Below, one piece after another: positions 1 to 17,603 of a DNA stretch of 24,312 bases. A model generated the notes under the pieces. The model was not told where the DNA came from. It saw only the letters and a program-made list of their open reading frames with translations, and made no database searches. The stretch comes from Spirogloea muscicola (taxonomy: Eukaryota > Streptophyta > Zygnematophyceae > Spirogloeales > Spirogloeaceae), in assembly GCA_009602725.1 (NCBI GenBank), contig WELB01000374.1, forward strand, positions 6,117 to 30,428, in the 5' to 3' direction. Position 1 is the first letter of the stretch; every line of letters begins with the position of its first letter. The position numbers were made by a program, and so were the translations under genes.

Positions 1-3000
1 CCTGGTGGCCAACTTGGGCAGCTCCTTCCTCACCTCCCTCCTCACCTCCCTCCTCAGGTTTCTCCGGCCAGCCCGCCTGCCGCGTCACCGCCAGCGTCGT
101 GCGGCCGGCGAAGCACGGCAGCTGCGCCTCCGGCGTGCGCATCAGCCGGCCGTACAACGCATCCTTGCCGCCGCCGCCGTTGCCGCCGCTGCCGCCGCCG
201 GGCCCAGCGATGAACTCGTGGAGCGCAGCCTGGCGCGCCGCAGCCACCGCCGGGACCAGCTCCGAGCACCGCGTCGAGAACAGCAGCTGGGGCTTGCCGC
301 TCCTGTCGCCCGCCGGCTTGTGGTACAGCGACACCTGCCGCACGCTGCGCAGGAAGAGCAGCGCCTCCGGCGCGAGCGCGGAGAACGCCGCGAACAGCGC
401 GAGCACGTCGGCGGGCGCGCACGGCTCGGCCTTGATCTCCGACACTGCTGCCGCCGCCGGCGAGCGCAGCGGGAAGCGGAAGAGCGTGCCAGAGTATGGC
501 GCAGCGCCCCGCAGGTCGCAGCCAAAGTGCGCGAACGGCGCGAACTGGTCGGGGAACGCGGCCGGCAGGCCGCGGCCCGGGAATACGAGCTTCAGGCCCG
601 GCTGCGCGGGGCTCACGCCCGGCAGGTGCCGAGCGTGGGGGTCGAAGAGCACCACGTGGCCGCCCGACACGAACCCTGCGCATGCACCGGCCATGCAGAA
701 TCATGGTTCTGAGGTCTAGGGCTTAGGATTTAGGGTTTAGAGGTTTAGGGTTCTGGTTTTAGGGTTTGGGTTGAGATTTAAGGGTAGGGATATCACCTTC
801 AATTACACACCAAATGGGTTCTTAGTCTGGTCTGCACTTTGCTTCTGCAAGGCAGCCTGTGCATCTGACATAAAGCCCGCATCTCAACGGACCCCAAATG
901 CCACCAATATCCTAAACTATGAATCAAAGGATTGCAGTACACTTGTAGCTGGTCCACAGCTCAATTAGTGTGCAGCTCTGGTCTCAGATTCATAACAAGG
1001 GTCTATGACTTATAACAAGCTTCATCAGATTTCAGGCTACCCAGGGTTTCAGGCAGGCAGCGACAGGAGGACAAAATTGGTTTAGGGTTAGGGTCATGGT
1101 TTAATTTATAAGGGTTCGGGGTTTGATAGGTAGGAGCGCAGGGAGCGCACCAGGGACGTCAGTGAAGTGGTAGACAGAGTTGAAGCCGAGGCCAAAGCGG
1201 CCGATGGCGGCGGGCCGCCGCAGCTTCCCGTCCTGCCCAATGCGGCTGATGGCGTACAGGTCGCTGGGCGAAAAGACGCTGTCGTTGTGGGCGAGCAGCG
1301 CGGGGCCCTGCCATGGGCGCATGCCCGGCGACAGAAGCGACGACGTGCCGTAGGAGCCGCTGTCCAGGAGGAAGGACACGCACGTCGCGCCTGCGTCGTC
1401 GGCGTTCTGCAGCAGCTCGAACAGAATGCCTGCCAAGGAGGTTCCAGCAAGAGAGAGAGAGGAGGGAGAGGGGAAGGAAAGTCGGAGAGGGACAGAGGAA
1501 CACAGAGGGAGCAGGAGAAGGGGCGTCAGTCCTGACAGAGAGGAAGGAGGGAGGAGGGACGACGCAGTAGAGAGCGAGGAAAAGGCCGAGCAACACAATC
1601 AGCAGGAGGGTGATCCCGAGAGTTCCTGGGCGACTGCAGGGAATGGCTGCCATGAGCTGAGCAAGCAAGACCGGTCAGTAGATATAGTGAGGAGTTATGG
1701 CAGCTATCTTTGTCATAGCTGTACGGATAGAGTTCAAGTCCAAGATGGGCATACTTGAGTAGGACATATAAAGAGTGGACAACAGGAGGAGAGGAGGAGG
1801 AGGACGTAGAAAGTGAGAGCAAACTAAAAGCAGAGCAAGGCCTAAATCAACAGTTTCAGTTGGGCACAAAGCTACCCCAACACCACTAAGCCTTCATCCT
1901 CCGTAGTTAGTAACCTCCAAGCCACAGATGACATAAATTGTAGCTTTTGCCTTCAATAACCCCGTTGTGACCAGGCAATTCGTCAATTTTCTCACCTGGC
2001 CCGTCAGCATACATCTCCACAATGTGCTTGAGGCGCGTCGTGAGCGCCTCATGCTGGCCGAACGCCTCAGCGACACCGGCGGCGAGGCCGAGCTCCAGGC
2101 CTGCCGCAGTGCCCGCGAGCAGCAGACGCCGCAAGGACCGTGCGCCCAGCCGCTCGCCCACGTCTGCTGACACGCTCGGATGCACGAACCGCAGCGGCGC
2201 CGCCACCAGAGCGCCGCCGTCTGCACATTGGATGGGCCAACAAGAACCCTCGTCACATGATTCTAAGATGTGAGACTTCAGCTCAATACCCTCCATAAAG
2301 TCCTTTTTGTTGGATACAGTCCTCATTGGCAAAGACAGTCAGTCATTGGCAGACCATCCTGACTCTGAAATACAAAGGTAACTAGCTGTCTCCCTCTCTC
2401 TATCACGAACATGCAACTCCTCTTATTCTCACACGAGTTTCACACTGAGGCTTTATAAGCTCACTGGTGCCTGGTGCATCTCCATCGGCGCCGCCATCGG
2501 CTACCCAGGGTGCGTCGTTGTACACCAGCTCTGCTGCTGGCGCCAGTACGCCCGCTGCAACCGGCACGTGCACGCCACCACTCTCCCCGGGAGGGCTGAA
2601 GGCCACACGGAGCAATGCCCTCAGCACATTAACTGGAATGTCTATTAACGAACTGCGTCTATTGTTGATCTTCCTGTAAGAAAAGCTATGTAGGCCGTGT
2701 AGTTGATGCTTTGGGAGTACCTGTTGATGGAAAGGGAGCCTTAAGTGCTGAAAAGTAGTGATTATACTCCAGGTCAAGAATTTATTTAAGCTGAACGATT
2801 AGAGACGTGTATTTGGAATCTCCATCTGTTGCACAGCTAGGCTGACTACCTAGGGACCTCTCTCCTCTCCTCCCCATCCTCTCCTGTTCCTTTGCTCCCT
2901 CTTTCCCTGCCCTGTTCTGGACTACGAGTAGGATCCGAAGCGTGACAGCTGAGAGGCCGCCCTCATGACCTCCTTGGCTGCTGAAAGCCTACATCCTAGA

Positions 3001-3292: not shown

Positions 3293-3819
3293 CCCTGTGG
3301 TGATGCCGCTAAATAGCGGCTCCACCCACGGGCACACGCTGTAGCCTTACCTCCCGCAGGACGCCGCCAAGGTCTCCACAGCAGAGCCGGCAACGAGCCG
3401 CGCGGGGCAGCGGTCTACAGCAGCAGGCAGCCGCAAGGCTGCGCCTCTCCGAGCTTCACTGAGTCCCCAGCCCCCAAGGTCGGGTCTCTCTCTGCTCGTG
3501 CAATAGTCAGTGCTTCTCCGTGCCACCCGCCCTTTAGGGTGTATGGGGGTTGCCCCAAGGCTCGCCCACGAGGAGCGTGCCTGACGAGGGAACCATGAGC
3601 TGTCTCCAGCAGGCGCCATGGCGCCGAGCATGGCCGCGGCGGGCATGCCGCCGAGCATGTCTGGGCCGAGCATGACGGGAGCATGCGAGGCCACCCGGAC
3701 GAACCTGGACGGAACGACAACGGCACGAGTGCCAGGGCGGTTCGTGCCGTCCGGCACAAATGAACACCAGGTAAGCGTTAACAACACTGTTAGGCGCTCA
3801 CAAACCTGGGAACGTTACA
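3293..3819 (-). mobile_element. LTR (copy LTR-3) of the gypsy-like family, truncated at its 3' end
   Basis: On the minus strand it starts TGTAACGTTCCC, like the LTR starts at 12201 and 13722. It carries the family promoter block GGGTGGCACGG-GAAGCACT (forward 3509-3528), identical over 20 bases to the LTR at 12561-12580. It then has a GCAGCC/CTGCTG-rich leader and a hairpin (3305-3320). It stops in mid-U5 at the undetermined base. The U3 contains a small run of ATGCTCGGC repeats (about 3615-3680). No TATA follows the block here (GACTATT), so the promoter is probably dead. Confidence 0.72.
3305..3320 (-). other. R/U5 hairpin of LTR-3
   Basis: GCCGCT pairs with AGCGGC around a 4-base loop: a perfect 6-bp stem. 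A CCACAGGG block follows on the minus strand. The hairpin is positionally equivalent to those at 7969-7985, 9415-9432, 12761-12778 and 14217-14234. Confidence 0.65.
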
Positions 3820-4294
3820 GACCTCCAGTATCTCTGGGGGCTCGAGGAATGTGGCAAGGACCCACGTGGTTGCTTTCGCTGCGTCGACTTGCAACATCGT
3901 CTCCGAGACTGCAAGACTCCCAGGCCTTCTACCTCTCGGCCGGCACGTCCCCTTGGGATGGTCAAGGGCAAATTACAAGCGCAAGCGTGAGAACCTTAAG
4001 CAAGCCGTGATATATGAATTCAAACAGCAAGTTGTATGAAAGCTATTTGACCTTGTTGGCCAGGCCTGCCCGCAATCGGACTTACTTGCTGTACGCTTGA
4101 TCTCTGCTTTGGTCGGAAGTCGGAGGGCCTCTGCTTGTGTGGCGACCCAAGCTGTAGCGTTCAGCCCTCTGGGCGCATAAATCTCCCGTTAACGCGTACA
4201 TGTGGTATCTGTGGCGCGGGCCATTTCGACTTTTCTCCCGCACCTTCTCACTTCCGCCAGCGATGTATCGCTTGGCGTGACCCCTGTCGTGCGG
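3820..4294. other. No recognisable gene; retrotransposon-flank sequence
   Basis: Short reading frames exist on both strands but none gives a recognised family. By position this should be internal sequence upstream of LTR-3 on the minus strand. The usual integrase tail and a clear polypurine tract are not recognisable, so the origin is uncertain. Confidence 0.4.
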
Positions 4295-4416
4295 TCTCCT
4301 CGAGGTCCGCCCGTGGACGTCACATGTCCTACGGGTCCCTCGCGGTCCGCCCGTGGCAGTTACCTGTCCACGTAACGGTACCCTCGAGGACTTCCCGTGG
4401 ACGTGACATGTCCCCG
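4295..4416 (+). repeat. Three imperfect ~41-bp tandem units, likely LTR U3 repeats
   Basis: Units at about 4295-4335, 4336-4378 and 4379-4416 share CTCGAGGTCC-type starts, a CCCGTGG core and an ACATGTCC-type end. They sit upstream of a decayed LTR promoter block, where gypsy LTRs often carry enhancer-like repeats. Confidence 0.6.
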
Positions 4417-4510
4417 CTATCGACTCTCGTGAGGCCCGCCCCTGACGGGGTGGGCCTCGGAGCGGCTTCCACACACCTCGGAGGGGGAGTGGCATCGAAG
4501 CATCACAAGT
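4417..4510 (+). mobile_element. Plus-strand LTR U3 fragment with decayed promoter block
   Basis: CACACACCTCGGAGGGGGAG followed by TGGCATCGAAGCATCACAAG aligns with the block before the TATA boxes of the LTRs at 9191-9220 and 13963-13998 (CACACCCTC, GGGGAGG, GGTGGCA, GAACGC). The TATA itself is lost (ATCACAAG). It abuts the truncated minus-strand LTR starting at 4523. Confidence 0.45.
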
Positions 4511-4522
4511 AGGCGGCCGAGA

Positions 4523-4823
4523 GCGCAGTGCGGCGGCGGCTGCGGCGGCGAGCAGCGGCCAGGCTGCTCCGAGGCTTCCCGGGCTCGAACTCATTGATGA
4601 GCCTCAGCCCCTGAGGCTCCTTAGTGCTTCCCCGTGCCAACCCCCCTCCAGGGGTGTGAGCAGGTTCGCCCCAAGGCCCGCCTTGCGGCGGGCCCAAGGA
4701 TCCTCCCTTGAACGGGCGGATCCTGGCGAGGGGTATTTCGGGACGGGCGGAGCCCGCCCCCGGGCGGGCCACTTGCCCGGCACAAATAGTCGGTCATGTG
4801 ATGCCAACAGAGCCATGTGGCTT
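4523..4823 (-). repeat. Partial 3' LTR of the minus-strand element
   Basis: A direct repeat of 8025-8329, with the same GCGGCGGC start, TGATGAGCC stretch, CTTGCGGCGGGCCC inverted repeat and CGGGCGGGCCACTTGCCCGG. It lacks the first ~23 bp of the LTR and all of U5. A 118-aa reading frame running from RT into the LTR across 4824 is a product of the deletion. Confidence 0.8.
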
Positions 4824-4960
4824 AGCTCCGGTGGGATTGTATGAGCCACACCTCGGTGAGGATATAGACCGTCCGGAAGAGAGTCAGGAAACACGTCCGC
4901 AAACTCATCCATCAGCTTATCAAGGACCCTGCCATGTGACTGCCATGTGAATCGCAGCAT
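4824..4960 (-). pseudogene. Gypsy pol fragment: start of the reverse transcriptase region
   Basis: Translation gives LMDEFADVFPDSLPDG followed by PHRGVAHTIPPE, the conserved segment that precedes the RT fingers in Ty3/gypsy polyproteins. It breaks off at 4824, where LTR sequence begins. The equivalent piece in the plus-strand element is at 9845-9960. No catalytic residues remain. Confidence 0.78.
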
Positions 4961-4989
4961 TCACACACAAGTCAGGCTGGGACTCGTCA

Positions 4990-5322
4990 TCATTGAACGC
5001 CACCATCACAAGAAATGCCATCTGGGCAGTTCTTGTGAATTAGTCGCTTCATCTGCATGGCGGACAGCAGAATGGAAGCCCCTGCCGCCAGCGGCGGTGC
5101 AGAGGGAAGCTGCTTGCATAGGACAAGGCGCCGTGCGCCACGTTGTACCGTGCAAGTTCGGTGTTCATAGTCAAGGCATGCTGATGTGGCACGAAGCCAG
5201 TCATCTCCCAATTTGACATCAAAGGACGTATAACGCAATTGCGTAGCAAAGAACCTCGGCTTTATATTGCTGAATGCGAAATAGGAATGAGCACAAACCC
5301 AGCACATTGGTGGGGTGCCCAT
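4990..5322 (-). pseudogene. Gypsy pol fragment: end of protease and linker
   Basis: SFDVKLGDDWLRATSACLDY resembles the FDVILGDDWL-type segment that ends the retropepsin fold and enters the linker of Ty3/gypsy pol. The frame differs from the upstream protease frame; an indel close to 5222 separates them. The same DNA segment, read in the matching frame, occurs at 9579-9700 on the plus strand. Dead copy. Confidence 0.72.
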
Positions 5323-5725
5323 CGGCCAATGTCACTCTAGCTAGACCGTCTGCTTGCAAATGCAAGCTAGCGGAGCACACCAAATCCCTACTCACGAAGG
5401 ACCCCGAGGCCCCGGAGTTTACGAGGAACCTAGCTGGTGCCGTAGCAACCAGCCCCTCAAACAGCATAGTATGTCCACCATGGACGCTGCCCAGGAATGG
5501 GGTGCGAGCAACGTAGACCCTGACCGCAGTCGGGTAAGGCCTATGCTCATAAGCATCGACGCTACGCCTGAGGAGCGTGTGACCTGCCTCGTGCGAGCAC
5601 AGCAGGTCCAGTCCCAGCGGAGCTCGACTAGTTACGCCGCGCTTCTGCTGCACAATGAAGAACAGCAGTTCTTCGGCCTCACGGCTTTCAGGCCAGCTCA
5701 AGTAAACATCAGCAGGCATTTGCAA
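5219..5725 (-). pseudogene. Retropepsin-like aspartic protease of the gypsy element, catalytic Asp lost
   Basis: The 168-residue frame contains APARFLVNSGASGSFVS, the active-site loop of a retropepsin. The expected catalytic Asp is replaced by Asn (codon at 5419-5417, AAC where GAC is expected). Downstream, VTLADGHPTNVLG fits the usual flap-region pattern. The upstream part (VYLSWPESREAEELLFFI) is probably gag-pol spacer. With Asp lost and a frameshift at its 3' end, it cannot encode an active protease. Confidence 0.75.
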
Positions 5726-5888
5726 TCATTGTGGGCAACCCACACAAATAGAGGCCCTCCGGCCTCCAAGCCTTGCAACAAAGCAGATATGGAGCGCACA
5801 ATCGGCACGGTTGGCGGGTAAGCAATGCCAGCAAGATCAAACAGCGCAAGTGCATCTGGCTGAATGAGATTGCGTCCCGAGGCAAGGG
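5698..5888 (-). other. Gag-protease spacer in a third frame
   Basis: A frame different from both gag and protease is open from about 6012 to 5698. It reads LTLASGRNLIQPDALALF and onwards without a recognised domain. It overlaps the gag end by 124 bp. It could be the original gag C-terminus or spacer after frameshifts. Confidence 0.35.
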
Positions 5889-7346
5889 TTAGGCACTCAC
5901 GCTTCCCCTTGAAGCTGCCCTTGTCCCGGCCCATCGGGCGCTGTGGACGTGGCCAGCAGATGCCGCCGTGCAGTCTCTGGACATGTGGCCCAGCTCCCCG
6001 CACTTGAAGCATCCAGCTCCCTCCACGCGCGGCTTGGGAAAACCGCCTTGTGGACGCGCGTTCGAACCTTGGCGTGGTTGGAATCGCTTGTTGCGTCGGT
6101 CTGCATCAGGACCGCCTGCCTGCAGCAGGGGCCGCTTGCTCGGACCTGCAAGGTTGACCGTGCCGAGCACCTTGCGGGCGTGCTCCACCATCATTGTGAA
6201 GTCGGTGAGCTGCTTCGCCGTCGCGGAATCCACCGCGACGGCGTCGCGACAACGCTTAGGCAGTCCAGCCTTAAAGCGTTGGCATTGCTCAATAGGCCGC
6301 ATGGGCTCGGTGTGGAGCTTGGAGAGCAGCAGCCTGAAGCTCCGCAGATAGGCCTCAAAGGCCTCCTTGCTTTCACCATCCATGTGGAGAGCATCCAGGT
6401 CGTCACGGGCGCGCAGCTCCTCGTGGGGGTCACCATAGGTGGATAGGAGCGAGCTGCAAAAGAAGCTCCATTCATTGGCTTTCGCGGGCGAGCCCTGCTT
6501 GATGGAATTGCACTCCCGAGGCTCCCCTGTGAGGTAGGTAGAAGCGAGACGCACGCGTGCCTCCGCCTTCGTGAGGGAACATACGAACCACTCATCCATT
6601 TCGTTGAGCCTTGGTCGCAACCCGCCCCGGTCGCCGTGGCCAGAGAACTGCCGCGGTGCATAGGCCCTGGCAAGTCTATGCTCAGGAGGTCCGTGGCTCT
6701 TGCGCCCAAGATGCAACGAGGCATCCACCTCTTGCATACGCCGCTCTGTCGCACGCAGCCGGACGAGGAGGGTGCGCTGCTCCGAGCAAATCCTTGCATT
6801 GAGCCGGTGTTGGGCTGGGTCCGATGTAGGCGCTGTTGCTGCAAGGTCCTGCATGAGGAGGGCCATCCTTTGCACCTCCCCAGCCGACAAGCCTTCGACC
6901 CCCAGCTCGGCATGCCCCTCCAGGGCTTGCCCCGCAGCAGCCACTGCATCCACAGTATCTGGCCCTGCCCCAGCCGCTGCATCCACAGCCGACCGTCCGA
7001 GAGCAGCCGCTGCATCCACAGCCGTCTGCTCCGTGGCAGCCGCTGTATCCGCAGCGGTCCGCTCCGCGGCAGCCGCTGCATCCGCAGCCAACCGCGCCTC
7101 TGCAGCCGCCGCATCCGCAGCCGACCGCGCCTCTGCAGCCGCTGCATTCGCAGCCGACCGCGCCGCAGCCGCTGCATCCACAGCTGACCGCTCCACGGCA
7201 GCCGCTGCATCCACAGCTGACCGCGCTGCAGTCGCTGCATCCACAGCCGACCGCGCTGCAGCCGCTGCATCCACAGCTGACCGCGCTGACGTTCGCGCTG
7301 CCGTCCGAGGACGGCTGGATCTTGCTCTGGACGTGGGTGAAGTCAT
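5889..7346 (-). CDS. Gag polyprotein of gypsy-like retrotransposon, ~485 aa
   Basis: The start MTSPTSRAR (7346) is chosen because the repeat domain follows at once; the frame is open further upstream, but that part is non-conserved leader. Residues ~21-138 are about eleven Ala-rich 10-11-residue repeats (ARSAVDAAAA type). Residues ~225-400 are a retrotrans_gag capsid-like domain (YLTGEPREC, W-F-L-YGDP, EAFEAYLRSFRLLLSKL, CQRFKAGLPKR). Residues 446-459 form a CCHC zinc knuckle, CFKCGELGHMSRDC (5970-6011), for RNA binding. Capsid assembly and RNA packaging are inferred from family. The frame is intact although pol is dead, so Gag might still be made from the 5' LTR. The LTR's TATA, however, looks damaged. 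Confidence 0.82.
   Translation of the reverse strand: MTSPTSRARSSRPRTAARTSARSAVDAAAAARSAVDAATAARSAVDAAAAVERSAVDAAAAARSAANAAAAEARSAADAAAAEARLAADAAAAAERTAADTAAATEQTAVDAAAALGRSAVDAAAGAGPDTVDAVAAAGQALEGHAELGVEGLSAGEVQRMALLMQDLAATAPTSDPAQHRLNARICSEQRTLLVRLRATERRMQEVDASLHLGRKSHGPPEHRLARAYAPRQFSGHGDRGGLRPRLNEMDEWFVCSLTKAEARVRLASTYLTGEPRECNSIKQGSPAKANEWSFFCSSLLSTYGDPHEELRARDDLDALHMDGESKEAFEAYLRSFRLLLSKLHTEPMRPIEQCQRFKAGLPKRCRDAVAVDSATAKQLTDFTMMVEHARKVLGTVNLAGPSKRPLLQAGGPDADRRNKRFQPRQGSNARPQGGFPKPRVEGAGCFKCGELGHMSRDCTAASAGHVHSARWAGTRAASRGSVSA
6933..7286 (-). repeat. Ala-rich tandem repeat coding the Gag N-terminal domain
   Basis: About eleven 30-33-bp units code (A/E)RSA(V/A)DAAAA(x). Arg or Glu at the start, Asp at position 6 and Ala elsewhere predict long alanine-rich helices. 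On the plus strand it reads as GCxGCATCCACAGCxGACCG units. Confidence 0.85.
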
Positions 7347-7820
7347 TCTGTCTGTGGGACACTGAAGGATCAATTCAGCTCCAACAGTCAGCAGATCACA
7401 CACTCCATACTGCAATACAAGACATCGCAAGACCGCTGCAGCAGTGAGCGAGCAAGCAAGGCAGCGCGCAACTCCACAGCAGGCAGGCAGACAGCCGCGG
7501 TATGACCAAGATCGATGCTCACGAGCAATGCTGGTCACACGACTGACCTCACCACACAAAGGCTGCAAGCTCAAACCACATCTCAATAGGAGCGAACACA
7601 GCCGCAAGTAGTCCTCAAGGATCGGTCCGCACTCTGGCGTTGGTCGTTGCTGGCTCTGCGCAAAGATGTTTCTGCACCCGGCGCTTCCGATGAGCCGCCT
7701 CACGGACCAACGTCTGGCAAGCACTTCAACTTTGACAGAAAACAGTCAAGCCATATATCAAGGAGATCCTTGCATCATCCGCGAGCACAAAAAGTTACAA
7801 GCACGATGGATGCAAGACCA
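7347..7820 (-). other. 5' leader of the minus-strand retrotransposon
   Basis: This is the non-conserved stretch between primer-binding site and gag start. It stays open in the gag frame up to 7724 but its translation (Cys- and Leu-rich) resembles nothing. No packaging element can be named from sequence alone. Confidence 0.5.
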
Positions 7821-7832
7821 CCTCTGATACCA
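7821..7832 (-). other. Primer-binding site, initiator-tRNA-Met type
   Basis: On the minus strand TGGTATCAGAGG lies two bases after the LTR end. TGGTATCAGAG is complementary to the 3' end of initiator methionine tRNA, the usual primer of plant LTR retrotransposons; the last base deviates from the usual C. Confidence 0.85.
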
Positions 7833-7834
7833 AA

Positions 7835-8352
7835 TGTAGAGAATCTCGCCCTGAACACGCACTTAGAGAGAGAGTCTCCTTATTGTATTCGAGCATAGGG
7901 GGTTTAGGGGCCAACCACTACACAAGGAAGCACAAGCGCATAGCGCAGCGGAAGACAGGCCCTGTGGCGCCGCCTTGACGGCGACTCCACCTCCTGGGCA
8001 CAGGCCGGCGCAGCAGGCCCCGCAGCGCAGTGCGGCGGCGGCTGCGGCGGCGAGCAGCGGCCACGCTGCTCCGAGGCTTCCCGGGCCCGAACTCATTGAT
8101 GAGCCACAGCCCCTGAGGCTCCTTAGTGCTTCCCGTGCCACCCCCCCTCCAGGGGTGTGAGCAGGTTCGCCCCAAGGCCCGCCTTGCGGCGGGCCCAAAG
8201 AAAAGATCCGCCCTTGAACGGGCGGATCCTGGCGAGGGGTATTTCGGGACGGGCGGAGCCCGCCCCCGGGCGGGCCACTTGCCCGGCCCAAATAGTCGGT
8301 CATGTAATGCCAACAGAGCCATGTGGCTTGACCAGACGGCTGTTTCATTACA
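7835..8352 (-). repeat. 5' LTR of the minus-strand element (~518 bp)
   Basis: It starts TGTAATGAAACAG (8352) and ends GATTCTCTACA (7835), i.e. TG...CA next to the primer-binding site. It contains the promoter block GGGTGGCACGGGAAGCACTA, a hairpin at 7969-7985, a CCACAGGG block, CTTCCGCTGCGC and a CCCCTAAACCCCC stretch. All align with the plus-strand LTRs. The block is followed by TAAGG instead of TATAAG, so the TATA seems lost. The 8352 boundary is inferred from the TG start alone. Confidence 0.75.
7969..7985 (-). other. R/U5 hairpin of the 5' LTR
   Basis: GTCGCC pairs with GGCGGC (one G-U) around GTCAA on the minus strand. GCCACAGGG follows. Confidence 0.55.
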
Positions 8353-8471
8353 CCCAAGGCGCCGCTTCGCGCCTCCTTGGAGCCGCCCAAGGCGCCGCTC
8401 TCCGTGTCCCCTTCGTCCGGCCTGCCCCTTCGGAGGAGGGCCTTGGGGGCGACCCTCGTCACACCCTCGGG

Positions 8472-8476
8472 GGAGG
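8472..8476 (+). repeat. Target-site duplication GGAGG, left copy
   Basis: This GGAGG directly precedes the TG start of the 714-bp insertion. The second copy is at 9191-9195. The uninterrupted site is seen once in the related LTR near 13972-13978. Confidence 0.7.
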
Positions 8477-9190
8477 TGTACCGAACTTACATGGCTGGAA
8501 TGTCAATGCAGCAGTAGTGTATTGACAGATGCCTCGAGACTATACACCTCATCCGGCTGACAATTGAATTTGACTGTCAGTGCCGCAGGAAAGGCTTGAC
8601 AGATGCCTGGAGACGGACATTTCACCAGGCTGGAAACTGGATTCAACCGTGAGCTGAGGAGCGGCGCCACCCGGAGTCGTGACGCGCGAGAAAGCATGAT
8701 GCTGGCGCTGGAACGGCGACGGGAGGCGGCAGCGCTGTAGACTGTCTTGACGGCATCGTTAGCCGTTAGTCTTGAGGGGAACCGTAGCCGGCTCACGATA
8801 GCCAGAGGGTAGTAGACCGTCAGCTACTATTGACGGCGCATTGACGGGGGACCGTCAGTATGGCGGTGGTGGCTGATGGATGGGTAGATTGTCGGTGGTA
8901 GCCCGTTGTTAGCCGTCGACAGATCGTGGACGGGTCGGGTCGTCAACGCTAGACTGGGTGCCAATTGTTTCATCCGGGCCCGTATGGCCGGGCTCGCAGT
9001 CCGTCGGGCTATATAGGGGGCACCCGAGATAGGAGAGGGGGTGACTTGTTCACCTAACCTCGGACCCCTGGACACTTGCCCCTGCAGTAACCGATGCTCA
9101 TTTTTACCGTTGCAGCCCCATTCCAATGCCTCCCCGCTTTTTCTTGCTCTGCCGGCAGCCCGGGCTTGGCGATCAACAGCATTCCTTGCA
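8477..9190. mobile_element. 714-bp insertion with TG...CA ends, probable solo LTR
   Basis: It starts TGTACCGAAC and ends CATTCCTTGCA, flanked by GGAGG on both sides. It has no coding potential. It contains two copies of TTGACAGATGCCTSGAGAC (8522-8540, 8596-8614), many CCGTCAG/TTGACGG words (8747-8862) and a possible TATA (GGGCTATATAGG near 9007). Length, ends and 5-bp duplication fit a solo LTR of another family; a non-autonomous element is the alternative. Other LTRs of the window do not share its sequence. Confidence 0.65.
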
Positions 9191-9195
9191 GGAGG
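9191..9195 (+). repeat. Target-site duplication GGAGG, right copy
   Basis: It immediately follows the CA end of the insertion, and the interrupted LTR promoter block resumes with GGTGGCAG. Confidence 0.7.
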
Positions 9196-9212
9196 GGTGG
9201 CAGATGGAACGC

Positions 9213-9220
9213 TATATAAG
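9213..9220 (+). promoter_or_regulatory. TATA box of LTR-1
   Basis: TATATAAG lies 15-20 bp after the GGGTGGCA-GAAC block. The same spacing is seen at 13992 (TATAAG) and 12580 (TATAAG). Confidence 0.65.
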
Positions 9221-9414
9221 TAGTAGGCCTAGGCCGGGCTCCCCAGTACGACGAATGCCGACAGAGACACAGCCCTGCTGCTGCCTAGCCAGCCCCGCTG
9301 CTGCCTGCTGCCGCTGCCGCCGCCACAGCACTACTGCCGCCGCCTGCTGCCCAGCCCGTCGCCGCAGCTCGTCGCTGTGGGCCCCGCCGGCTCTCTGTAA
9401 ATTCATGGTGGAGT

Positions 9415-9432
9415 CACCGCCATAGGTCGGTG
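9415..9432 (+). other. R/U5 hairpin of LTR-1
   Basis: CACCG pairs with CGGTG around an 8-base loop, then CCTCAGGG. The stem sequence differs from that of LTR-2 (CGCCGCC/GGCGGCG) while pairing is kept. Confidence 0.5.
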
Positions 9433-9578
9433 CCTCAGGGTAAGACTTCCGCTGCGCTCTATGCGCGTGTGTGCGTTGGCGTTCTCCTGTATGAGGGTTG
9501 TCTCCTAAACACCCTATGCTTGAATCCAGACCAGGACATTCTGACCCTAAGTGTGTGATTAGGGACAGGGATGCTACA

Positions 9579-9767
9579 GGCTTGGTGCCACATCAGCATG
9601 CCTTCACTTTGAACGTCATGGATGCACTGTACAATGTGGCTCTCGGCGCCGTGTCGTTTGTAAATGAGCAGACCTGTAAACTGCCTCGGGCTGCTGGAAC
9701 TTCGACTCTGCCGTTCGCCACGCTGATGAAGAAGCTGCTGCACAAGCAAGCGGTCGAGTCCGCGTAG
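9579..9767 (+). pseudogene. Gypsy pol fragment: protease-RT linker, plus-strand element
   Basis: The DNA aligns with 5200-5040 of the minus element (TGCCACATCAGCATGCCTT is shared almost exactly). In the original frame it reads LGATSACLHFE and is soon stopped. It joins the end of LTR-1 directly, so primer-binding site, gag and protease are deleted. Confidence 0.65.
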
Positions 9768-9777
9768 CTTGTCCTAA

Positions 9778-10430
9778 ATGACGTCGTGCGACGAGGCTGC
9801 CCATGATGCGTATGTGAGTGCTGAGTCCTCACAGGGCGGTGTTCTTGATAATCTGTTTAATGAGTACTCGGGTGCGGTGACCGAAGTGCTCCCGGACGGT
9901 CTACCTCCTCACCGAGGAGTGGCTCATGACATTTTGTTAGAGCCATGCGCTGAGCCGCCGTGAAGGCCGATGTGCCGACTGATTCCTCTCGAAGTAGGGG
10001 ACGTACAACGCCAAGGTCCACTTGCTAAGGAAGGGTCATAGGAGCCTTCTTTGTCGCCGTACGGTGCACGAATCCTCTTCGTGATGAACAAAGACGGCAA
10101 TCTTCGAATGTGCATAGTCGATCGAGCTCTTGGCAAGCTCACTATCAAGCACTGATACCTTTTGCCACGTGGGCAAAATTTGGGATATGCGTCGACCCCA
10201 AGACGACTTTGGTCGTACGGGATTGGCCTGTGCCACGGAATGTGCTGCATTCTCTGTGAATTTGCGAATGACTTCCGGAATTTCCTACAAGGGAATGGGT
10301 ACATGGCACTTCCTCTTACGCGGCTCACTCGGAAGGACATACTCAAAGAAAGCTCGTCCGAATGCCAGAGGGCATTTGAGGATTCCCAACAGGCACATAC
10401 ATCCCGCCTGTTCCAGCCTTTCCTCGAGAA
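9778..10430 (+). pseudogene. Reverse transcriptase remnant, palm core deleted
   Basis: Recognisable in order: LFNEYSGAVTEVLPDG and PHRGVAHDILLEP (9845-9955). Next is SPYGARILFVMNKDGNLRMC, continuing to LGKLTIKH, a TGA stop (10153-10155) and YLLPR (to 10170). Then come VDPK and VRDWPVPRNV (from about 10189) and NFLQGNGYMALPLTRLTRKD in a shifted frame. These are the fingers and the connection of a Ty3/gypsy RT. The region between YPLPR and VDPKK, which holds the YxDD catalytic motif, is missing. Several stops and frameshifts add to this. Inactive. Confidence 0.8.
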
Positions 10431-10790
10431 GGCGTGCCGTATGAGCTGATTTATGACGCCTCTTTGTCCGGCATTGTGCCATGCTCTTGCCACCCGTTAG
10501 CGTTCGAGAGCCGTCTGCTGATCCCCGCCGAGCGCTTTCAAGCTACGGGTGAGCAAAAGCTGCTGGCTGTGGTGCACGCCTTACGTATTCGGCGTTGCTA
10601 CCTGGAAGCTGTGGTTAAAACTAGGAACGGATAATTGCCCGTTGACGTACTTCCACTCTCAACAGCTACTGACGAGGCGACAAGCTCTGTGGTCTAGTTG
10701 ATGGCATCATTCTGATTCCAGTGGGACTACCGCCCTGGAATGATCAATGTTGCGGACAGGTGAGCCGCAACATTGCAGAGGCTGCTGCGG
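10431..10790 (+). pseudogene. RNase H remnant of gypsy pol
   Basis: PYELIYDASLSGI, PLAFESRLLIPAERF and TGEQKLLAVVHALR match the Ty3/gypsy RNase H domain (the Asp of YDAS is one catalytic carboxylate). After a frameshift, FQWDYRPGMINVAD near 10710-10760 is the conserved end of the domain. Stops and small indels make it non-functional. Confidence 0.8.
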
Positions 10791-11094
10791 TAGCTGCCTT
10801 CAACACGTCGGGAGTTCAAGAGGCAGGCATGCGTCCTACTCGTGGCGCTTCTCGGCAACCTACTATCAACCTCTCTTATGTGCACGTGCCTATTTGTGAT
10901 GGGTATGGCACCGACCCTTGGTTGAGGTGGCAACCAATGTATGCACAGTCTCCAATGACAATGGATTTGGTGGCACGGCGACGCCATTGGGTTCCGAGAC
11001 TACAATGCCGTGCATAGCACCATCATGCAGGAGCCGCATGATATGCCTTAGAGTGATCATCTTGGAGTCAATCAGACCAAAAGGCTGAGAAGGG

Positions 11095-11900
11095 CCTCTT
11101 CTGGTGGCCCACGTACACGCTATTGTAAAAAGCTGTGCCACATGCCAGCGAAGCAAGGCAATCTCTGGCAAGCGAACCGGAATATCTTGACCCCTAAAGT
11201 CTCCTGAGCGAGATCGAGCTGATGTGAGTGTGGAAATCATGACACAATCGCCTAACTTGCGGAACTGATTCTGCCATTATCGTCTTTGTGGATCCGTAGA
11301 GCAAAGTGGCGCACTTTGCTCCAACGACCATGCTTCGGCGAAGGACTTTGTTGGCATCTTTGTGGATAAGGTGTGGAAGTTGCATGGCGTACCGAGAAGA
11401 TGGTCGCGGACCGTGATCTAGACTTGCGGGTTACTTTTGGAAAAATTATTTTGCAAGCTTAATTCAAGAAGCAGGCCATGTCCACTGCCTTTCATCCCCA
11501 ACGCGATGGACAAACCGAGAGAATGGAAAGAGTTTGCCAAGGACATGCTCAGGCATTAGAGTCAGACCGACTGCGATGCATTTCTGGTTGCGTGCCAAGC
11601 GTGCTGTGAACATTGCCTGTCATGAATGCACCAGAGCGACACCCTTCTTCCTCAATAACGGTCACCATCTCCGAGCACCTTTGCAGGTGGAGAGGCCGGA
11701 CAGTGTCCCCGGCCGCATGCTGACCAACGTCGGAAGGTGTCTTCTTCGACGTGGGTGCTGCGGTACTGATGAGTACAACGCAACTGTCCTTGCGGGCACT
11801 GGGTACGCGAACGTTGCTAACCCAGTGGGGACTCCCCCCTTGGTACGCCTTTTGGCGAGGTGTCCTACGAGCTTGGTACACCGGTACAATGGAAGACTCG
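11095..11900 (+). pseudogene. Integrase remnant of gypsy pol
   Basis: Pieces in order: VKSCATCQRSKA (CxxC of the HHCC zinc finger, about 11125-11162), IVFVDP-stop-SKVAHFAP (about 11278-11320), DFVGIFVDKVWKLHGVPRRMVADRDLD (in two parts, 11340-11425), STAFHPQRDGQTERME (11480-11525), VNIACHECTRATPFFLN (11606-11660) and GEVSYELGTPV (about 11855-11890). The order after RNase H puts the element in Ty3/gypsy. There are many stops and frameshifts. Confidence 0.8.
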
Positions 11901-12200
11901 TACTTTGATCCACGTGTTTCAGATCCGGACCTTTCCATTTTCAATGGCCGCGTCCAACCGCCCCCACCTCCTCTCTTGCTTAGGATCTGCTATGAGCACG
12001 AGATGGATTAAATCACACCGGGACAGATTCCGTGAGCGCAATAGCCTGCCGCCAACTTTGCTATTTGGCAGGATGCTCTGCGGAACTACTTCGCGACGGA
12101 TGGTGACTCCCCTCCGCTGCGTAGTTGCTGCAACCGTTGGATGTCATGTCCTTCGGTTGATTGCTATTCCCGAGGACGTCAACGATCAAGTGGGAGGGTA
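11901..12200 (+). other. 3' end of the plus-strand element with polypurine tract
   Basis: Decayed post-integrase sequence; no chromodomain could be read. It ends CCCGAGGACGTCAACGATC then AAGTGGGAGGG (12189-12199), a polypurine tract just before the TG of the next LTR. The same arrangement is at 13690-13721. Confidence 0.55.
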
Positions 12201-12897
12201 TGTAATGTTCCCACCGTTGTAAGCACTAATCAGCGCTGTTTAATGATTACGTGAGTGCAGACGCACAGTACGTTCTTGTGCCAATCTGGCACTCGTCCCG
12301 TTATCGTCCTTACGGACCTGGCTCTGCCAGGTAGCTACAGGGGGTCCCACCCAAAAGCCCAGGTAGCTCCAGGTGGGTCGGTCCCGCCCGTGCTAGACGC
12401 CATATCATGTCGCGGTAGTTGTGCAACCGAAGCGCCGCTGCGTGCCTCCGGCAGTTGCACAACCGATGCGCCGCTTGGTGTCGCCCACCAGTATGACTCC
12501 CCATCGCGAGCCCACCCTTCGGGGTAGGCAATGGGGCGGCCCCTAAATACCCAAGGGGAAGGGTGGCACGGAGAAGCACTATAAGGGGTTGGCATCGACC
12601 CTCCTGATGGAGCTGGGATCGTTGAAGCTAAAGATAGGCGCAGCCCTGCTGCTGCCTGCTGCCGCAGCCCGTTGCCAACAGATCGCTGCCGGCGTGCTGC
12701 GAGGCGTTTTTGGCTGGTCCTTGGGGGCCTAGCTGCGGGCTGGTGCCCAGGAGGTGGGGACGCTGCCTGACGGCAGTGGCACAGGGCCAAGACTTCCGCT
12801 GCGCGCTGACGCGCGATTGCTTTTACTGTAGGAAGTTTGCTCGTGAAGCCCCTATGTCCGATAATAAATAACGTGACCGCCTAAATGCCTGTGTACA
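12201..12897 (+). repeat. LTR (LTR-A), 3' LTR of the plus-strand pol remnant
   Basis: It starts TGTAATGTTCCC after a polypurine tract. It carries the promoter block at 12561-12580 and TATAAG (12580-12585), a CTGCTGCC leader, the shared word GTGCCCAGGAGGTGG, a hairpin at 12761-12778, ACAGGG and AAGACTTCCGCTGCGC. The end at 12897 (TGTACA) is tentative. U3 (direct repeat around 12415-12475: GTTGCACAACCGA...GCGCCGC) is unlike LTR-1 and LTR-2, so it is a diverged subfamily. Confidence 0.68.
12761..12778 (+). other. R/U5 hairpin of LTR-A
   Basis: CGCTGCC pairs with GGCAGTG (seven pairs, one G-U) around TGAC, followed by GCACAGGG. Confidence 0.6.
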
Positions 12898-13721
12898 GGG
12901 TCGGGTCAATTAAAGTGCGCGTGAAGACTCTCCTGGTTTTGTCCGTCACGGAAGTGGAACTCGTTGTCACACTTCCTCACTACTGGGCAGGATGGCCAGG
13001 CGTGCAGACCACCACCAACTGGTTGGCTAAGTACTTGAGAAGAGTAGACGGCTGGGCACGCCCCAGTCCTGTGTCAGACGGACCAAGGTATCCCCTTGCC
13101 AAGGCCTTCTGAAGTCGACGCTCGCCCGTGCGCATCCGACCGCAGGGACTTTACTTCCTCACACAGCGCCCCCATGAGGGAGGACACCGCAGGCCCCACA
13201 GCAGGGACCATTGCCTCAAAGAGCTCCATCAGGCGCACCACGCGCAGAGTCTCCTTACGGGACAAGCCATCAGTGTTTTGCGGGGCGGGTTGGCAGGTCG
13301 ACTAGCGCCTTGGTCAGCTGCGCCACACCAGCAGGTTGTCCTGCCGGCCGAGGAGGACTTGGAGGCGCACTTGAATCGTGCGACTCCAAATCGTGCCTAT
13401 GGAATACTGATGGGCCAGATCAGCGTCCAGTAGACAGCAAATTTCACATCAATACTGCTAAATATCAGCACAGCTGGACTGATGCAGCAGAACAGATGGC
13501 AGAGACGGCAGCACGCTAAGTTTTACCCCCAAACAGCAAAACAAACAAGATGCTGAAGGGCACAAAGGACTAGTCCGGACATCAAATCAGTTCCTGGAGA
13601 TTGGATCGGCCTCCCTCCTTCGCGTCGTACTCCTTAAGGCACCCGTCGCAAGTAATCTACGGGTTCTCCTTACGTACTGTGTCCTTGTTCCCGAGGACGT
13701 TAACATCTAAGTGGGGAGGAA
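12898..13721 (+). other. Internal remnant of another LTR element, ending in a polypurine tract
   Basis: No domain is recognised on either strand. A 63-codon minus frame (13265-13074, SRKETLRVVRLMELFEAMVP...) and short plus frames give no family. The right end, CCCGAGGACGTTAACATC followed by AAGTGGGGAGGAA (13709-13721), parallels 12163-12199 and marks this as the 3' internal end preceding LTR-2. Confidence 0.5.
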
Positions 13722-13991
13722 TGTAACGTCCCCCCGTTTCAACGAGCCAAACGTTCCCAATAAACGGCTTCACGCTCGCGTCACGCGCCAGTCACGCGCG
13801 CCACGCGCCAGTCACGCGCACGTGCCAGTCCCCAGGACTTGTATACCATTCGTCAGGCTCGCGCCACGCAAGCCCGCACCTTGCGCGTCACTCGCCAGTC
13901 GTATCTCCATTGTGCAGGTCCGCTCCTCCGGGGGCCGGACCTTGAGGCTACCCTCGTCACACCCTCCGGGGAGGGGTGGCAGGTGGAACGC

Positions 13992-13997
13992 TATAAG
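13992..13997 (+). promoter_or_regulatory. TATA box of LTR-2
   Basis: TATAAG follows GGGTGGCAGGTGGAACGC at the same spacing as in LTR-1. Confidence 0.65.
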
Positions 13998-14216
13998 TAG
14001 TAGGCCGAGGCCAGACTCTTCAGTCGGACCAGTGACGCCCAGAGAGAGGCATAGCCCTGCTTGCCTGCTGCCGCAGCCGCCGCCCCAGCTCTGCTGCTGC
14101 TGTCTGGTGCCCAGCCCGTCGCTGCAGCCCGTCGCTGCGGACATCGCCGGCCCTCCGTAAGTGCCACGGTTGCGCCTCATCTGGGTCAGCTACTAATCTC
14201 AAACGCTCTGTAGAGT

Positions 14217-14234
14217 CGCCGCCTTCTGGCGGCG
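14217..14234 (+). other. R/U5 hairpin of LTR-2
   Basis: CGCCGCC pairs perfectly with GGCGGCG around TTCT (7 bp), followed by CCTCAGGG. Confidence 0.65.
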
Positions 14235-14393
14235 CCTCAGGGTAAGACTTCCGCTGTGCGATGTGATGCACTTGAGTGCACCGTGTGCGTTGGCGCTCCA
14301 CTATGTAGGGGGTAAGTTCCTAAACCCCCTTGGTCCAAACTCAAGAAGGACGTACTAACCCCTAACTGCGTGTATAGTGATCAGGACGTTACA

Positions 14394-14521
14394 GCCTGTC
14401 TTCGGCTGCGCCGATGCGCTAGCGCTTTGCCTGTCTAGTGGGTTGGTCCCTAAGCCCCCCACAGCCGAACTCAATAAGGAATGCTCACCCTAACTGCGTG
14501 TGTCGGGGCAAGTTCTTTACA
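14394..14521 (+). repeat. U5 end of a further plus-strand LTR
   Basis: CCTGTCTTCGGCTGCGC, TAGTGGGTTGGTCCCTAAGC and TAACTGCGTGTGTCGGGGCA through TTCTTTACA align with the last ~125 bp of the minus-strand 5' LTR (ending GATTCTCTACA). The 5' part is absent; it starts where LTR-2 ends. A related 20-mer (GCCCAGGAGGTGGAGTCGCC) recurs at 14561-14580. Confidence 0.6.
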
Positions 14522-14637
14522 CGATTTGTTTTTCGGCGTGGGTGTTCAAGTGCTGCTAAGGGCCCAGGAGGTGGAGTCGCCGGCCGGGGCATCGCGCAGC
14601 GGCCACAATATCTGGCCCGCACCGTCCCTCCCACATC
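14522..14637 (+). other. Junction between LTR debris and LINE debris
   Basis: It holds the LTR leader word GCCCAGGAGGTGGAGTCGCC (14561-14580), also found in the 5' LTR at 7982-8001. No gene is seen. Confidence 0.4.
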
Positions 14638-15936
14638 GTGGTGAAGGCAGCGTATGCGGCCTTTGACTCCGGCATCTTGGCGTCCGCAGCCACCCTCGTG
14701 CAGCACCCCACGTTCCTCACCACACCAGCTGCGCTGCTGCAGGCCAGCCTGCCGACCAGTCGCGGCGGCTTGGGATGCGGCTCAGTTGCCCGCGTCTGTG
14801 AGGCGGCCTACGTGGGGAACTGGGCTCAGGTTGCAGCCCCTATGTGCCAACGCTTCATCGTCCACGGCCAGCGCGCCCTGGAGCGGGCGGCAGCTGAAGT
14901 GGAGACGGGCCAGCTCCCCTTCCAGGTCGCCCTCCGCTCTGCCCGCGACGGGCTCCTGGCGGTCCACCCCCACATGTCGGAACAGGCCGTCCCCTTCATT
15001 CACCTCGCACACACCCCCGACCTGCGTGCCCAGGCACGCTTCACGGCGGTGGCTGAACAAGCGGCCTCTGACCAGGTGGTGGAGCTTCTCCCTCCGTCTG
15101 ACCTTTGCGGGCGTGCCCGGCTTCTTTCAGCCTCTTCTCCTGGGGCGGCGGCGCTCCCACTCTACGCAGCACTCACCATGCCCGCACGAGATCTACAGGA
15201 CGGCGGTCCACCGGCTCTTGGGCCTCCTCCCTCCCTGCCTCGTGGGCGTCACTCAGTGCGAGTGCGGTGCCCGTCACGCCGACCCTGCGGAGCTGGCCGC
15301 GCATATGCTCCGCTGCACGCACGGGGGCGAGCGGAGCAGCTCCCATGATCTCCTGCGCGATGGTATGCAGGGGGTGTTCATGGAGGCGGGCTTCAAGGTG
15401 GCGGTGGAGAATACCTCAATAATGCCAATCCAGCTGGGCGCGGACGGCCAGCCCCATACACGACGCGCCGACCTGGTCGCCATCCCGCCCGGCCGCGGTC
15501 CCCGCATCACTGCCTACCTGGTGACAATTGACTGCATCGATTCCGCCAATCCCACCAGGTCGGCGTCGTTTGCAGGGCACGCGGTCGGCCTGGCGGCCCG
15601 GAGTAAAGAGCGGAATATGCCGACCACCCGGTTGGTAATGAATTCGCGGCCCTGGCGATCGACGTCCACGTGGCTTCGGCAGCCGCTGGCTGGATCTCCT
15701 TCAGCAGCTTGCCCGTCAGGCCATTGACCGGCGGCCGGGTCTGCCAGGGGTGCTGCCCGGCTTCAACGCCGCCGGTTCGCTCGCCCAAGTCTTTTGCATG
15801 CGCCTGGCGGAATCGTTCCAACGCTCCCTTACCCACGCAGTCCACACGCGCGCAGGACGTGCTCTGGCCGCCGTCTCTGGGTCTCGGCGGAGTGCCTCCT
15901 TCCCGGCAATGCCTCCCACGACTAACTCAGGGATAC
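14638..15936 (+). pseudogene. LINE ORF2 C-terminal remnant, copy P1
   Basis: Frame 1 reads LLQASLPTSRGGLGCGS and AAYVGNWAQV, the post-RT segment typical of algal and plant LINE polyproteins. Near 15185 the frame shifts to HEIYRTAVHRLLGLLPP, then a Cys/His motif CECG...HMLRC with GG-SSSHDLLRDGMQ. TRRADLVAIPPGRGP and YLVTIDC follow and may be remains of a C-terminal nuclease-like domain; this is inference. Another shift near 15680 gives FNAAGSLAQVFCMRLAESFQ and HTRAGRALAAVSG. The copy ends at RLTQGY (15919-15936), matching the LLTRGY ends of other copies but without a stop. 5'-truncated, at least two frameshifts, dead. Confidence 0.72.
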
Positions 15937-17535: not shown

Positions 17536-17548
17536 AGTTGCTACGAAT

Positions 17549-17586
17549 CACTCAGTAACCCCTGCTAAGCAGCCGCAGATCAGAGA
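17549..17586 (-). pseudogene. LINE tail-only copy M3
   Basis: It encodes SDLRLLSRGY with stop at 17552-17554. It is a 38-bp exact duplicate of 17724-17761 and is followed immediately on the minus strand by the coding part of M4, without a 3' UTR. Confidence 0.6.
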
Positions 17587-17603
17587 GAGAAAGGCGCCTG
17601 GAA

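Follow-up and report, generated by a model that had tools for sequence, protein, structure and literature searches.

Five related LTRs of a retrotransposon family, contained in a window of 24,312 nucleotides that represents the whole stretch of DNA analyzed, each carry a short hairpin, and they raise the question of whether this hairpin is kept by selection on RNA pairing or by some other process. RNA signals in LTR retrotransposons appear to have been little mapped beyond yeast and some plants, and a series of hairpins at fixed places of the LTR offers a direct and testable handle on which pairs face selection.

Element context of the five LTRs

The five LTRs are old and diverged copies from a degraded family in eukaryotic DNA that is probably of the Ty3/gypsy type. 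The gag gene of the minus-strand element (5889..7724, minus strand) specifies a Retrotrans_gag domain and a CCHC zinc knuckle that both exceed the Pfam cut-off, and a putative aspartic protease scores 23.0 bits for Asp_protease_2, which is below the cut-off of 24.3. A domain scan that took nine of the 18 plus-strand stop-to-stop pieces of positions 9577-12200 yielded one match to RT_RNaseH, an RNase H of the reverse-transcriptase type (26.8 bits, cut-off 24.8). No match to a reverse transcriptase or an integrase was obtained in these nine pieces, one of which gave an unrelated sub-threshold match and seven of which gave none.

The primer-binding site TGGTATCAGAG (7822..7832, minus strand), which we take to be a match to initiator tRNA-Met, is located two bases past the terminal TACA of the minus 5' LTR, and the purine tracts AAGTGGGAGG and AAGTGGGGAG precede LTR-A and LTR-2. 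The primer-binding site and the purine tracts belong to different elements of the window, and such marks are common to other LTR elements as well. A splice donor CAGGGTAAGA in LTR-1 and LTR-2 was dropped as a candidate, as it is absent from LTR-A and the minus LTR, and LTR-3 ends there.

A co-positioned hairpin in the five LTRs

The inverted repeats listed in the earlier note were recovered letter for letter at positions 3305-3320 (LTR-3), 7969-7985 (minus 5' LTR), 9415-9432 (LTR-1), 12761-12778 (LTR-A) and 14217-14234 (LTR-2), and they do occupy the same place in each LTR, namely one aligned slot that lies, in the same element sense, between GGTGGAG and CAGGG. The 5' flank of this slot reads GGTGGGG in LTR-A and TGTAGAG in LTR-2. 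The CAGGG...CTTCCGCTG block is present downstream of the hairpin in four of the LTRs, and LTR-3 breaks off behind CAGGG, position 3292 being an N. Both LTR-3 and the minus LTR lie on the minus strand, and the sense orientation of the hairpin, designated SL1, is the same in all five.

SL1 is longer than first described and comprises an upper helix, a mismatch or small internal loop and a lower helix, both helices being present in the minimum-energy fold of each of the five slots when folded in isolation. The hairpin of LTR-3 (3299..3326, minus strand) reads GGTGG.GCCGCT-ATTT-AGCGGC.TCACC, with 11 pairs and one A.A mismatch, and that of the minus 5' LTR (7964..7990, minus strand) reads GTGG.GTCGCC-GTCAA-GGCGGC.CCAC, with 10 pairs and one A.G mismatch. 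On the plus strand, LTR-1 (9411..9436) contains GAG.CACCG..CGGTG.CTC with one U.C mismatch, and LTR-2 (14213..14238) contains GAG.CGCCGCC-TTCT-GGCGGCG.CTC with 10 pairs and likewise one U.C mismatch. The SL1 hairpin of LTR-A (12754..12782, plus strand) combines the upper helix CGCTGCC/GGCAGTG and the lower helix GTG/CAC around a 4x1 internal loop, and its centroid structure is devoid of the lower helix. In its context, LTR-1 folds preferentially into another hairpin, ATGGTGG/CCGCCAT, which competes with SL1, and the SL1 helix has a pair probability of 0.01-0.12.

The SL1 slot compared with chance expectation

Among co-positioned 28-nt windows of the five aligned LTRs, SL1 was the strongest hairpin (mean z -4.06), and the slot holds the lowest mean energies among 130 offsets. 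With 28-nt windows, not one of 1000 circular shifts equalled it, and with 36-nt windows the P value was 0.006, the circular-shift and offset nulls both leaving common descent in place. Short stems are cheap in this DNA, since a perfect stem of at least 5 pairs occurs in 49% of the 34-nt background windows when G-U pairs and loops of 3-8 nt are allowed. The one-mismatch helices of LTR-3, the minus LTR, LTR-1, LTR-A and LTR-2 comprise 11, 10, 8, 8 and 10 pairs, and these lengths are reached by 1.0%, 2.7%, 12.9%, 12.9% and 2.7% of the background windows, respectively. Dinucleotide shuffles of single slots, in which that of the minus LTR was one base off, resulted in z values of -6.0, -4.3, -1.6, -1.0 and -3.5 in the same order; LTR-1 and LTR-A alone were not significant, with 16 of 200 and 41 of 200 shuffles folding equally well. 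We are highly confident that the shared, co-positioned hairpin of the five LTRs is real.

The 45-window scan revealed a U3 window that outscores SL1 and antisense windows with z values down to -4.0. Sense folding showed no gain over antisense folding beyond composition, neither for SL1 (P 0.38) nor for U3 (P 0.21). The difference between the strands is accordingly an effect of composition, and the G-U pairs are no proof of a sense RNA. When LTR-3 was held out and scored with a model built from the remaining four LTRs, the inclusion of structure added bits, raising the score from 7.2 (E 0.33, sequence alone) to 14.8 (E 0.077), which is not significant; the antisense strand scored higher with structure than the sense strand, at 17.8 bits (E 0.013).

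Conservation of pairing and paired changes

The earlier note described stems of different sequence with paired changes. The first part does not hold throughout the family, as the minus LTR and LTR-2 have the same upper arms (GAGTCGCCG, GGCGGCGCC), which appeared to differ because different registers had been chosen for them. Only three of the 28 compared columns differ between these two LTRs, all of them within the flanks that form the lower helix. The sequence of the minus LTR also permits pairing in the register of LTR-2, and in LTR-3 the pairing register is displaced by 3 nt. On a reading that we regard as doubtful, SL1 would be able to slip between two such registers, and LTR-A would be an intermediate that has its lower helix in one register and its upper helix in the other.

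With respect to covariation, two compensated pairs at homologous columns of four LTRs stand, but the claim was overstated, since shuffles often match this number. One homologous G-C pair is changed on both sides in LTR-1, to A-U, and occurs as the intermediate G-U in LTR-A, and a second one is changed from C-G to U-A in LTR-A; the counts of such both-side pairs were matched by 136 of 500 shuffles of five sequences and by 60 of 500 shuffles of four, in a sample that consists of only five related copies from one window. Over the five LTRs, 86% of the cells are paired, and sliding the structure by 1-3 columns lowers this figure to 63% or less. In a comparison with column shuffles by RNAalifold, the slot had a P value of 0.012 and the four R-U5 sequences one of 0.003, and the region downstream of the hairpin was not significant (P 0.29). 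On longer alignments, RNAalifold kept the upper helix and lost the lower one.

Random substitution at the same substitution number, starting from a consensus that is identical to the minus LTR and counting related LTRs as independent, yielded a joint P value of 0.005 by energy, and three of the four pair measures had P values of 0.013, 0.028 and 0.004. The fourth measure, a perfect stem with G-U pairs allowed, was not significant (P 0.23), and 54% of the simulations leave at least 5 perfect pairs in all four changed LTRs. This last result, together with the frequency of short stems in this DNA and the identical upper arms in two of the five LTRs, would suit an ancestral GC-rich palindrome that has not decayed, in which the 3-nt periodicity of GCC/GGC lets several registers pair. 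Pairwise identity among the four LTRs other than LTR-3 points in the same direction: arms and flanks are 79% identical, the linker is 84% identical and the sequence further downstream 58%. The substitution results by energy and by the three other pair measures argue against such inertia, as does the lower pairing of slid registers, and we consider it rather unlikely.

Paired changes can also arise by a template-switch mutation, in which DNA synthesis or reverse transcription copies one arm of a short inverted repeat onto its partner, without selection on RNA. Template switching was graded as a serious rival to RNA selection. Its mechanism is published: the part of PMC8794818 used here describes that template switching can create and maintain RNA hairpins and invert their loops, and the extension to reverse transcription is made here. 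The hairpins described in that part resemble the present ones in that short stems show paired changes together with an inverted loop, but they are the outcome of a mutational process and not the property of an element, and the present LTRs show one possible loop inversion. The loop GTCAA of the minus LTR is nearly the reverse complement of the loop TGAC of LTR-A (P 0.016), yet this is the best of ten pairs and fails correction for multiple testing. Moreover, the central mismatch or small internal loop persists in all five local folds and G-U pairs persist in three, whereas a switch of the whole stem should remove both; a switch of the tip only would not. Template switching is judged an improbable source of the pattern, and a genome-wide set of copies could separate it from selection as the source of the paired changes. 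Selection on RNA pairing at SL1 is in our estimation about an even proposition, if anything on the favorable side.

Further hairpins in U3 and U5

The signal is not special to the R/U5 region, since comparable hairpins are located upstream of TATA. SL1 belongs to a series that includes H1 and H3, and partly H2, in U3 and a weaker SL3 in U5. The hairpins H1-H3 were assigned to positions 13915..13981 of LTR-2 (plus strand), directly upstream of TATA (13991), and to 3521..3582 of LTR-3 (minus strand). In the minus 5' LTR (8136..8196, minus strand) H1 (GGCCCGCC-GCAA-GGCGGGCC) and H3 are found along with a weak H2 (3 pairs, P 0.44). The U3 region of LTR-A (12506..12568, plus strand) forms H1, H2 and H3 when these are excised singly and adopts a different fold as one stretch. 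LTR-1 (9144..9202, plus strand) contains H3 with 8 pairs, and its H1 and H2 are not above shuffles (P 0.45 and 0.56), the P values of H1-H3 being biased because the slots were cut around hairpins seen beforehand. The aligned U3 stretch gave a P value of 0.22 for six sequences and of 0.025 upon the post hoc removal of LTR-1, and its consensus fold differs from the H1-H3 chain. For H2/H3, 87% of the cells are paired compared with at most 68% when slid, and no covariation above shuffles was detected.

SL3 of LTR-2 (14307..14330, plus strand) pairs AGGGGGT with ACCCCCT and is significant alone (P 0.014). The corresponding regions reach P 0.06 alone in LTR-1 (9486..9519, plus strand) and are not significant alone in the minus 5' LTR (7893..7924, minus strand, upstream of AATAAG at 7884-7879; P 0.21) and in LTR-A (12825..12857, plus strand, directly 5' of AATAAA at 12863; P 0.42). 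Column shuffling of the SL3 area, which was picked after inspection, resulted in a P value of 0.006. A further stem, SL2 (GCGC...GCGC, 3' of SL1), folds in five of five sequences (four LTRs and a fragment at 14394), with a longer and different stem in LTR-2, and was excluded from the claim as each P value was 0.06-0.28.

The LTRs might be chains of fast-changing hairpins with conserved pairing, from H1, H2 and H3 in U3 through SL1 in R to SL3 in U5, that would constitute a modular structured domain at the ends of the genomic RNA, in which the sequence drifts and the architecture stays, although we regard this broader reading as doubtful. Template switching would account for hairpins in both U3 and R. 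The position of the U3 hairpins directly upstream of TATA and the equal folding of both strands beyond composition would also fit palindromes that work as double-stranded DNA, for example as sites that dimeric proteins bind within and downstream of the promoter. The arms of H1 vary widely among the LTRs and a protein site should hold its sequence, an argument by which this possibility appears very unlikely.

Proposed location of SL1 in the R region and its possible function

The position of SL1 after TATA and before AATAAA/AATAAG makes it plausible that the hairpin falls within R of the genomic RNA. The distance of about 200 nt downstream of TATA given in the earlier note applies to three of the five LTRs, in which a TATA box is found 182-226 nt upstream of SL1, but the minus LTR and LTR-3 contain no TATA match. 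The AATAAA/AATAAG motif lies 85 nt downstream of SL1 in LTR-A and the minus LTR (two of five). If located between the transcription start and the poly(A) site, SL1 would be present at both ends of the RNA. The chances seem evenly balanced that it represents an R-region stem-loop of a Ty3/gypsy-type genomic RNA, kept by pairing selection while the elements were active. Since the sense strand is no better a folder than the antisense strand beyond composition, action as RNA rather than DNA can only be presumed. The task of SL1 may be structural, helping the CCHC Gag to recognize the genomic RNA for packaging and/or contributing to the first strand transfer between the R copies; this assignment is tentative, and 3'-end processing or RNA export would be near alternatives. 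The zinc-knuckle Gag of the minus element was counted in favor of this explanation, and the U3 hairpins, which would fall outside a 5' leader starting at TATA, were counted against it. The small number of copies makes the proof modest, and SL1 may aid the working of the element RNA.

R-region stem-loops are known from retroviral LTRs, where structure may outlast sequence according to the excerpted text of PMC2664473. The vertebrate examples given in the portions of PMC2664473 and PMC3651342 considered here (the gammaretroviral R hairpin, the HML R hairpin, lentiviral TAR and the AATAAA stem-loop) resemble SL1 as short stem-loops, presumed in its case to be in R, near a poly(A) signal and with structure perhaps kept over sequence. 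In contrast to them, SL1 derives from another host and element group and is accompanied by extra hairpins in U3 upstream of TATA, the sequence relation having been compared via Rfam only. The yeast elements Ty1 and Ty3 likewise have a genomic RNA with 5' structure, and packaging, dimerization and priming signals are ascribed to this end in the section of PMC4974528 drawn upon. The Ty1 signals described there are a pseudoknot and palindromes, the RNA structure of Ty3 is termed uncharacterized, and an R hairpin of the SL1 kind does not appear in that section. Regarding the present family, we assume that it falls into the same broad group as Ty3.

Search for known RNAs and further copies

No Rfam 15 family matched the window at the gathering score, and a search of positions 14040-14640 with E values up to 1 returned a single match, whose 15.2 bits fall short of the gathering score of 40; no tRNA was detected. 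Pattern scans, BLAST, the R1 model and a plasmid search found no further copies of the family. The pattern scans marked 7, 0 and 25 stretches in viral contigs and 19 in genome contigs. Comparison of seven LTR pieces with all 51 loci by BLAST gave E values of 3e-4 to 0.12 for the best 30 matches, which were treated as chance. The best of these matches is the L021 pattern site itself. Model R1, applied to 10 of the 51 loci, reached a best E value of 0.35, and a distant search of plasmids with the minus LTR at E values up to 1e-5 gave no match. Within the window, a sixth and broken copy (14563..14601, plus strand) contains the 5' flank and the 5' arm CCCAGGAGGTGGAGTCGCC and then departs from the family, with a weak match to the R1 model at 14570-14601 (8.3 bits, E 4).

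A hairpin shared by five LTRs

SL1 is a real hairpin common to five LTRs of a family of degraded, probably Ty3/gypsy-type retrotransposons, namely LTR-3 (3299..3326, minus strand), the 5' LTR of a minus-strand element (minus LTR; 7964..7990, minus strand), LTR-1 (9411..9436, plus strand), LTR-A (12754..12782, plus strand) and LTR-2 (14213..14238, plus strand). All five inverted repeats listed in the earlier note were found and, once turned into the same orientation, they share the claimed common place: each occupies a slot consisting of GGTGGAG (GGTGGGG in LTR-A, TGTAGAG in LTR-2), 20-22 nt and CAGGG. When each slot of 32-34 nt was folded alone, the upper helix recognized previously formed in 5/5 LTRs with 5-7 pairs (5 + 2 across a bulge in LTR-1), as did a lower helix of 3-5 pairs that had been missed. 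The mismatch above the lower helix is A.A in LTR-3, A.G in the minus LTR and U.C in LTR-1 and LTR-2, with a 4x1 loop taking its place in the isolated slot of LTR-A. The lower helix is predicted with less certainty than the upper one, as the LTR-A centroid lacks it and longer RNAalifold alignments retain the upper helix only. In longer context, the mean pair probability of the upper helix was 0.98 in LTR-3, 0.91-1.00 in the minus LTR, 0.99 in LTR-2, 0.45-1.00 in LTR-A and 0.01-0.12 in LTR-1, where ATGGTGG/CCGCCAT competes.

Short stems are frequent in this DNA (49% of 34-nt windows). The most trusted test compared z profiles of local folding by position on the five-LTR alignment. The SL1 column was the lowest of the profile, with a mean z of -4.06 for 28-nt windows (0/1000 circular shifts) and of -3.00 for 36-nt windows (P 0.006), under a circular-shift null that leaves common descent unaccounted for. 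The next lowest site at 28 nt was the hairpin H1 in U3 (-3.5, with values from four LTRs and +0.3 in LTR-1), followed by H3 in U3 (-2.3), a leader site at column 180 (-2.0) and the weaker hairpin SL3 in U5 (-1.7). Among 45 windows scanned along an alignment of four LTRs, the top sense-strand window fell in U3 (column 168, within the stretch of H2 and H3; z -5.25) rather than at SL1, and three SL1 windows ranked fourth to sixth (z -3.4 to -3.0). The antisense control had no SL1 window among its ten best and reached z -4.0 at a weak site, so that values of about -3 cannot count as proof here. LTR-2 and LTR-3 each form all three hairpins, H1 to H3, immediately upstream of TATA. The minus LTR forms H1 and H3 there together with a weak H2; the H1 arms are highly divergent between these three LTRs. 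The consensus fold of the aligned U3 stretch was not significant in six sequences (P 0.22) and gave P 0.025 without LTR-1.

Pairing and sequence change in SL1

The proposal that pairing is kept while the stem sequence changes is partly supported by two column pairs altered on both sides, although shuffles often match this count. SL1 pairs in two registers shifted by 3 nt. LTR-1, LTR-A and LTR-2 share one register, which is also open to the minus LTR; in it, one G-C pair becomes A-U in LTR-1 and G-U in LTR-A, and one C-G pair becomes U-A in LTR-A. LTR-3 pairs in the other register, so the both-side change that it seems to show in the five-sequence analysis falls in a register that LTR-3 leaves unused. 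No covariation was detected in the minus-type register on an alignment that does not accommodate the three extra bases of LTR-3. With five sequences, 86% of cells were paired versus 24-63% with the structure slid; the paired share was matched by 24/500 shuffles, the covariation score by 20/500 and the two both-side pairs by 136/500. The corresponding numbers with four sequences (92.5% paired) were 60/500, 41/500 and 60/500. RNAalifold compared with column shuffles yielded P 0.012 for the slot, P 0.003 for R-U5 in four sequences, P 0.006 for the SL3 area and P 0.29 for the stretch past SL1.

A random-substitution null placed random changes, matched in number for each LTR, in the consensus arms, taking the LTRs as independent despite some shared substitutions; the minus LTR equals the consensus and contributes nothing. 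The joint P was 0.005 for energy, and 0.23, 0.013, 0.028 and 0.004 for four pair measures; under the first (perfect stem, G-U allowed), all four changed LTRs retained at least five pairs in 54% of simulations. Scored with a covariance model built from the remaining four LTRs, LTR-3 obtained 14.8 bits (E 0.077) and its antisense strand 17.8 bits (E 0.013), and a sequence-only model gave LTR-3 7.2 bits (E 0.33). Overall, the case that selection has acted on pairing is modest. Among mutational rivals the most serious is template switching as the source of the paired stems, a process able to maintain stem pairing according to PMC8794818; in line with it, the minus-LTR loop appears inverted in LTR-A (P 0.016, one of ten pairs).

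Possible role of SL1

The suggested distance of about 200 nt from TATA holds in three of the five LTRs (182-226 nt), and in two LTRs SL1 lies 85 nt upstream of AATAAA or AATAAG. If these signals are used, SL1 would lie inside R and thus be present at both RNA ends. Stem-loops of the R region are known from retroviral LTRs, where PMC2664473 and PMC3651342 connect them with the processing of RNA, with expression and with poly(A) geometry. For Ty elements, PMC4974528 describes packaging and dimerisation signals in the 5' RNA. By analogy, a job in packaging or strand transfer is favoured, with low confidence. The element is unstudied, and SL1 is a feature of an ordinary kind; among the matches listed for open-licence papers, no title dealt with a hairpin like this in comparable elements.

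Element pieces and host genes in the window

Judged by its reading frames, the window DNA is eukaryotic, because a sacsin-domain frame (1101-1598, minus strand), the MARCHF6 C-terminal domain (20897-21874) and WDR75 (22677-23951, minus strand) were found. It may come from a green alga. The region between these host frames contains a cluster of degraded pieces from LTR retrotransposons. One of them, the minus element, comprises gag with a zinc knuckle (5889-7724), a protease-like frame (5219-5725), LTR copies at 8024-8329 and 4522-4823 (95% identity to each other) and a primer-binding site two bases past the 5' LTR. The usual DSG motif of retroviral-type proteases is replaced by NSGAS in the protease-like frame, and the N-terminal part of gag contains a 33-nt tandem repeat (6928-7254; one copy step 30 nt) translating as an alanine-rich 11-residue repeat. 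Where BLAST aligns them, LTR-1, LTR-2, LTR-A and LTR-3 show 65-66% identity among themselves and 65-71% to the minus LTR; no direct BLAST match was obtained between LTR-3 and LTR-1. Purine tracts precede LTR-A and LTR-2, which would suit 3' LTRs.

The stretch directly 3' of LTR-1 (9576-9927) has 67% identity to the terminal part of the internal region of the minus element (4841-5201), which runs into the 3' LTR copy within 20 nt; the start of the internal region of LTR-1's element thus seems to be missing. At 14388-14400 the LTR-2 end (GTTACA) abuts an older U5 fragment that starts just past its own hairpin slot, and LTR-3 likewise breaks off right past CAGGG, at an N, giving two breaks at the same LTR place. 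A further U3 fragment of the family (8417-8482, plus strand; 77% like LTR-2 over 61 nt) adjoins the minus 5' LTR. Reading frames at 14638-15727 resemble the terminal portion of a non-LTR retrotransposon, with no Pfam match at E 0.001 for their 236-aa frame, and two direct-repeat pairs of 80 nt (99% identity) and 76 nt (83% identity) are located at 17511-17985.
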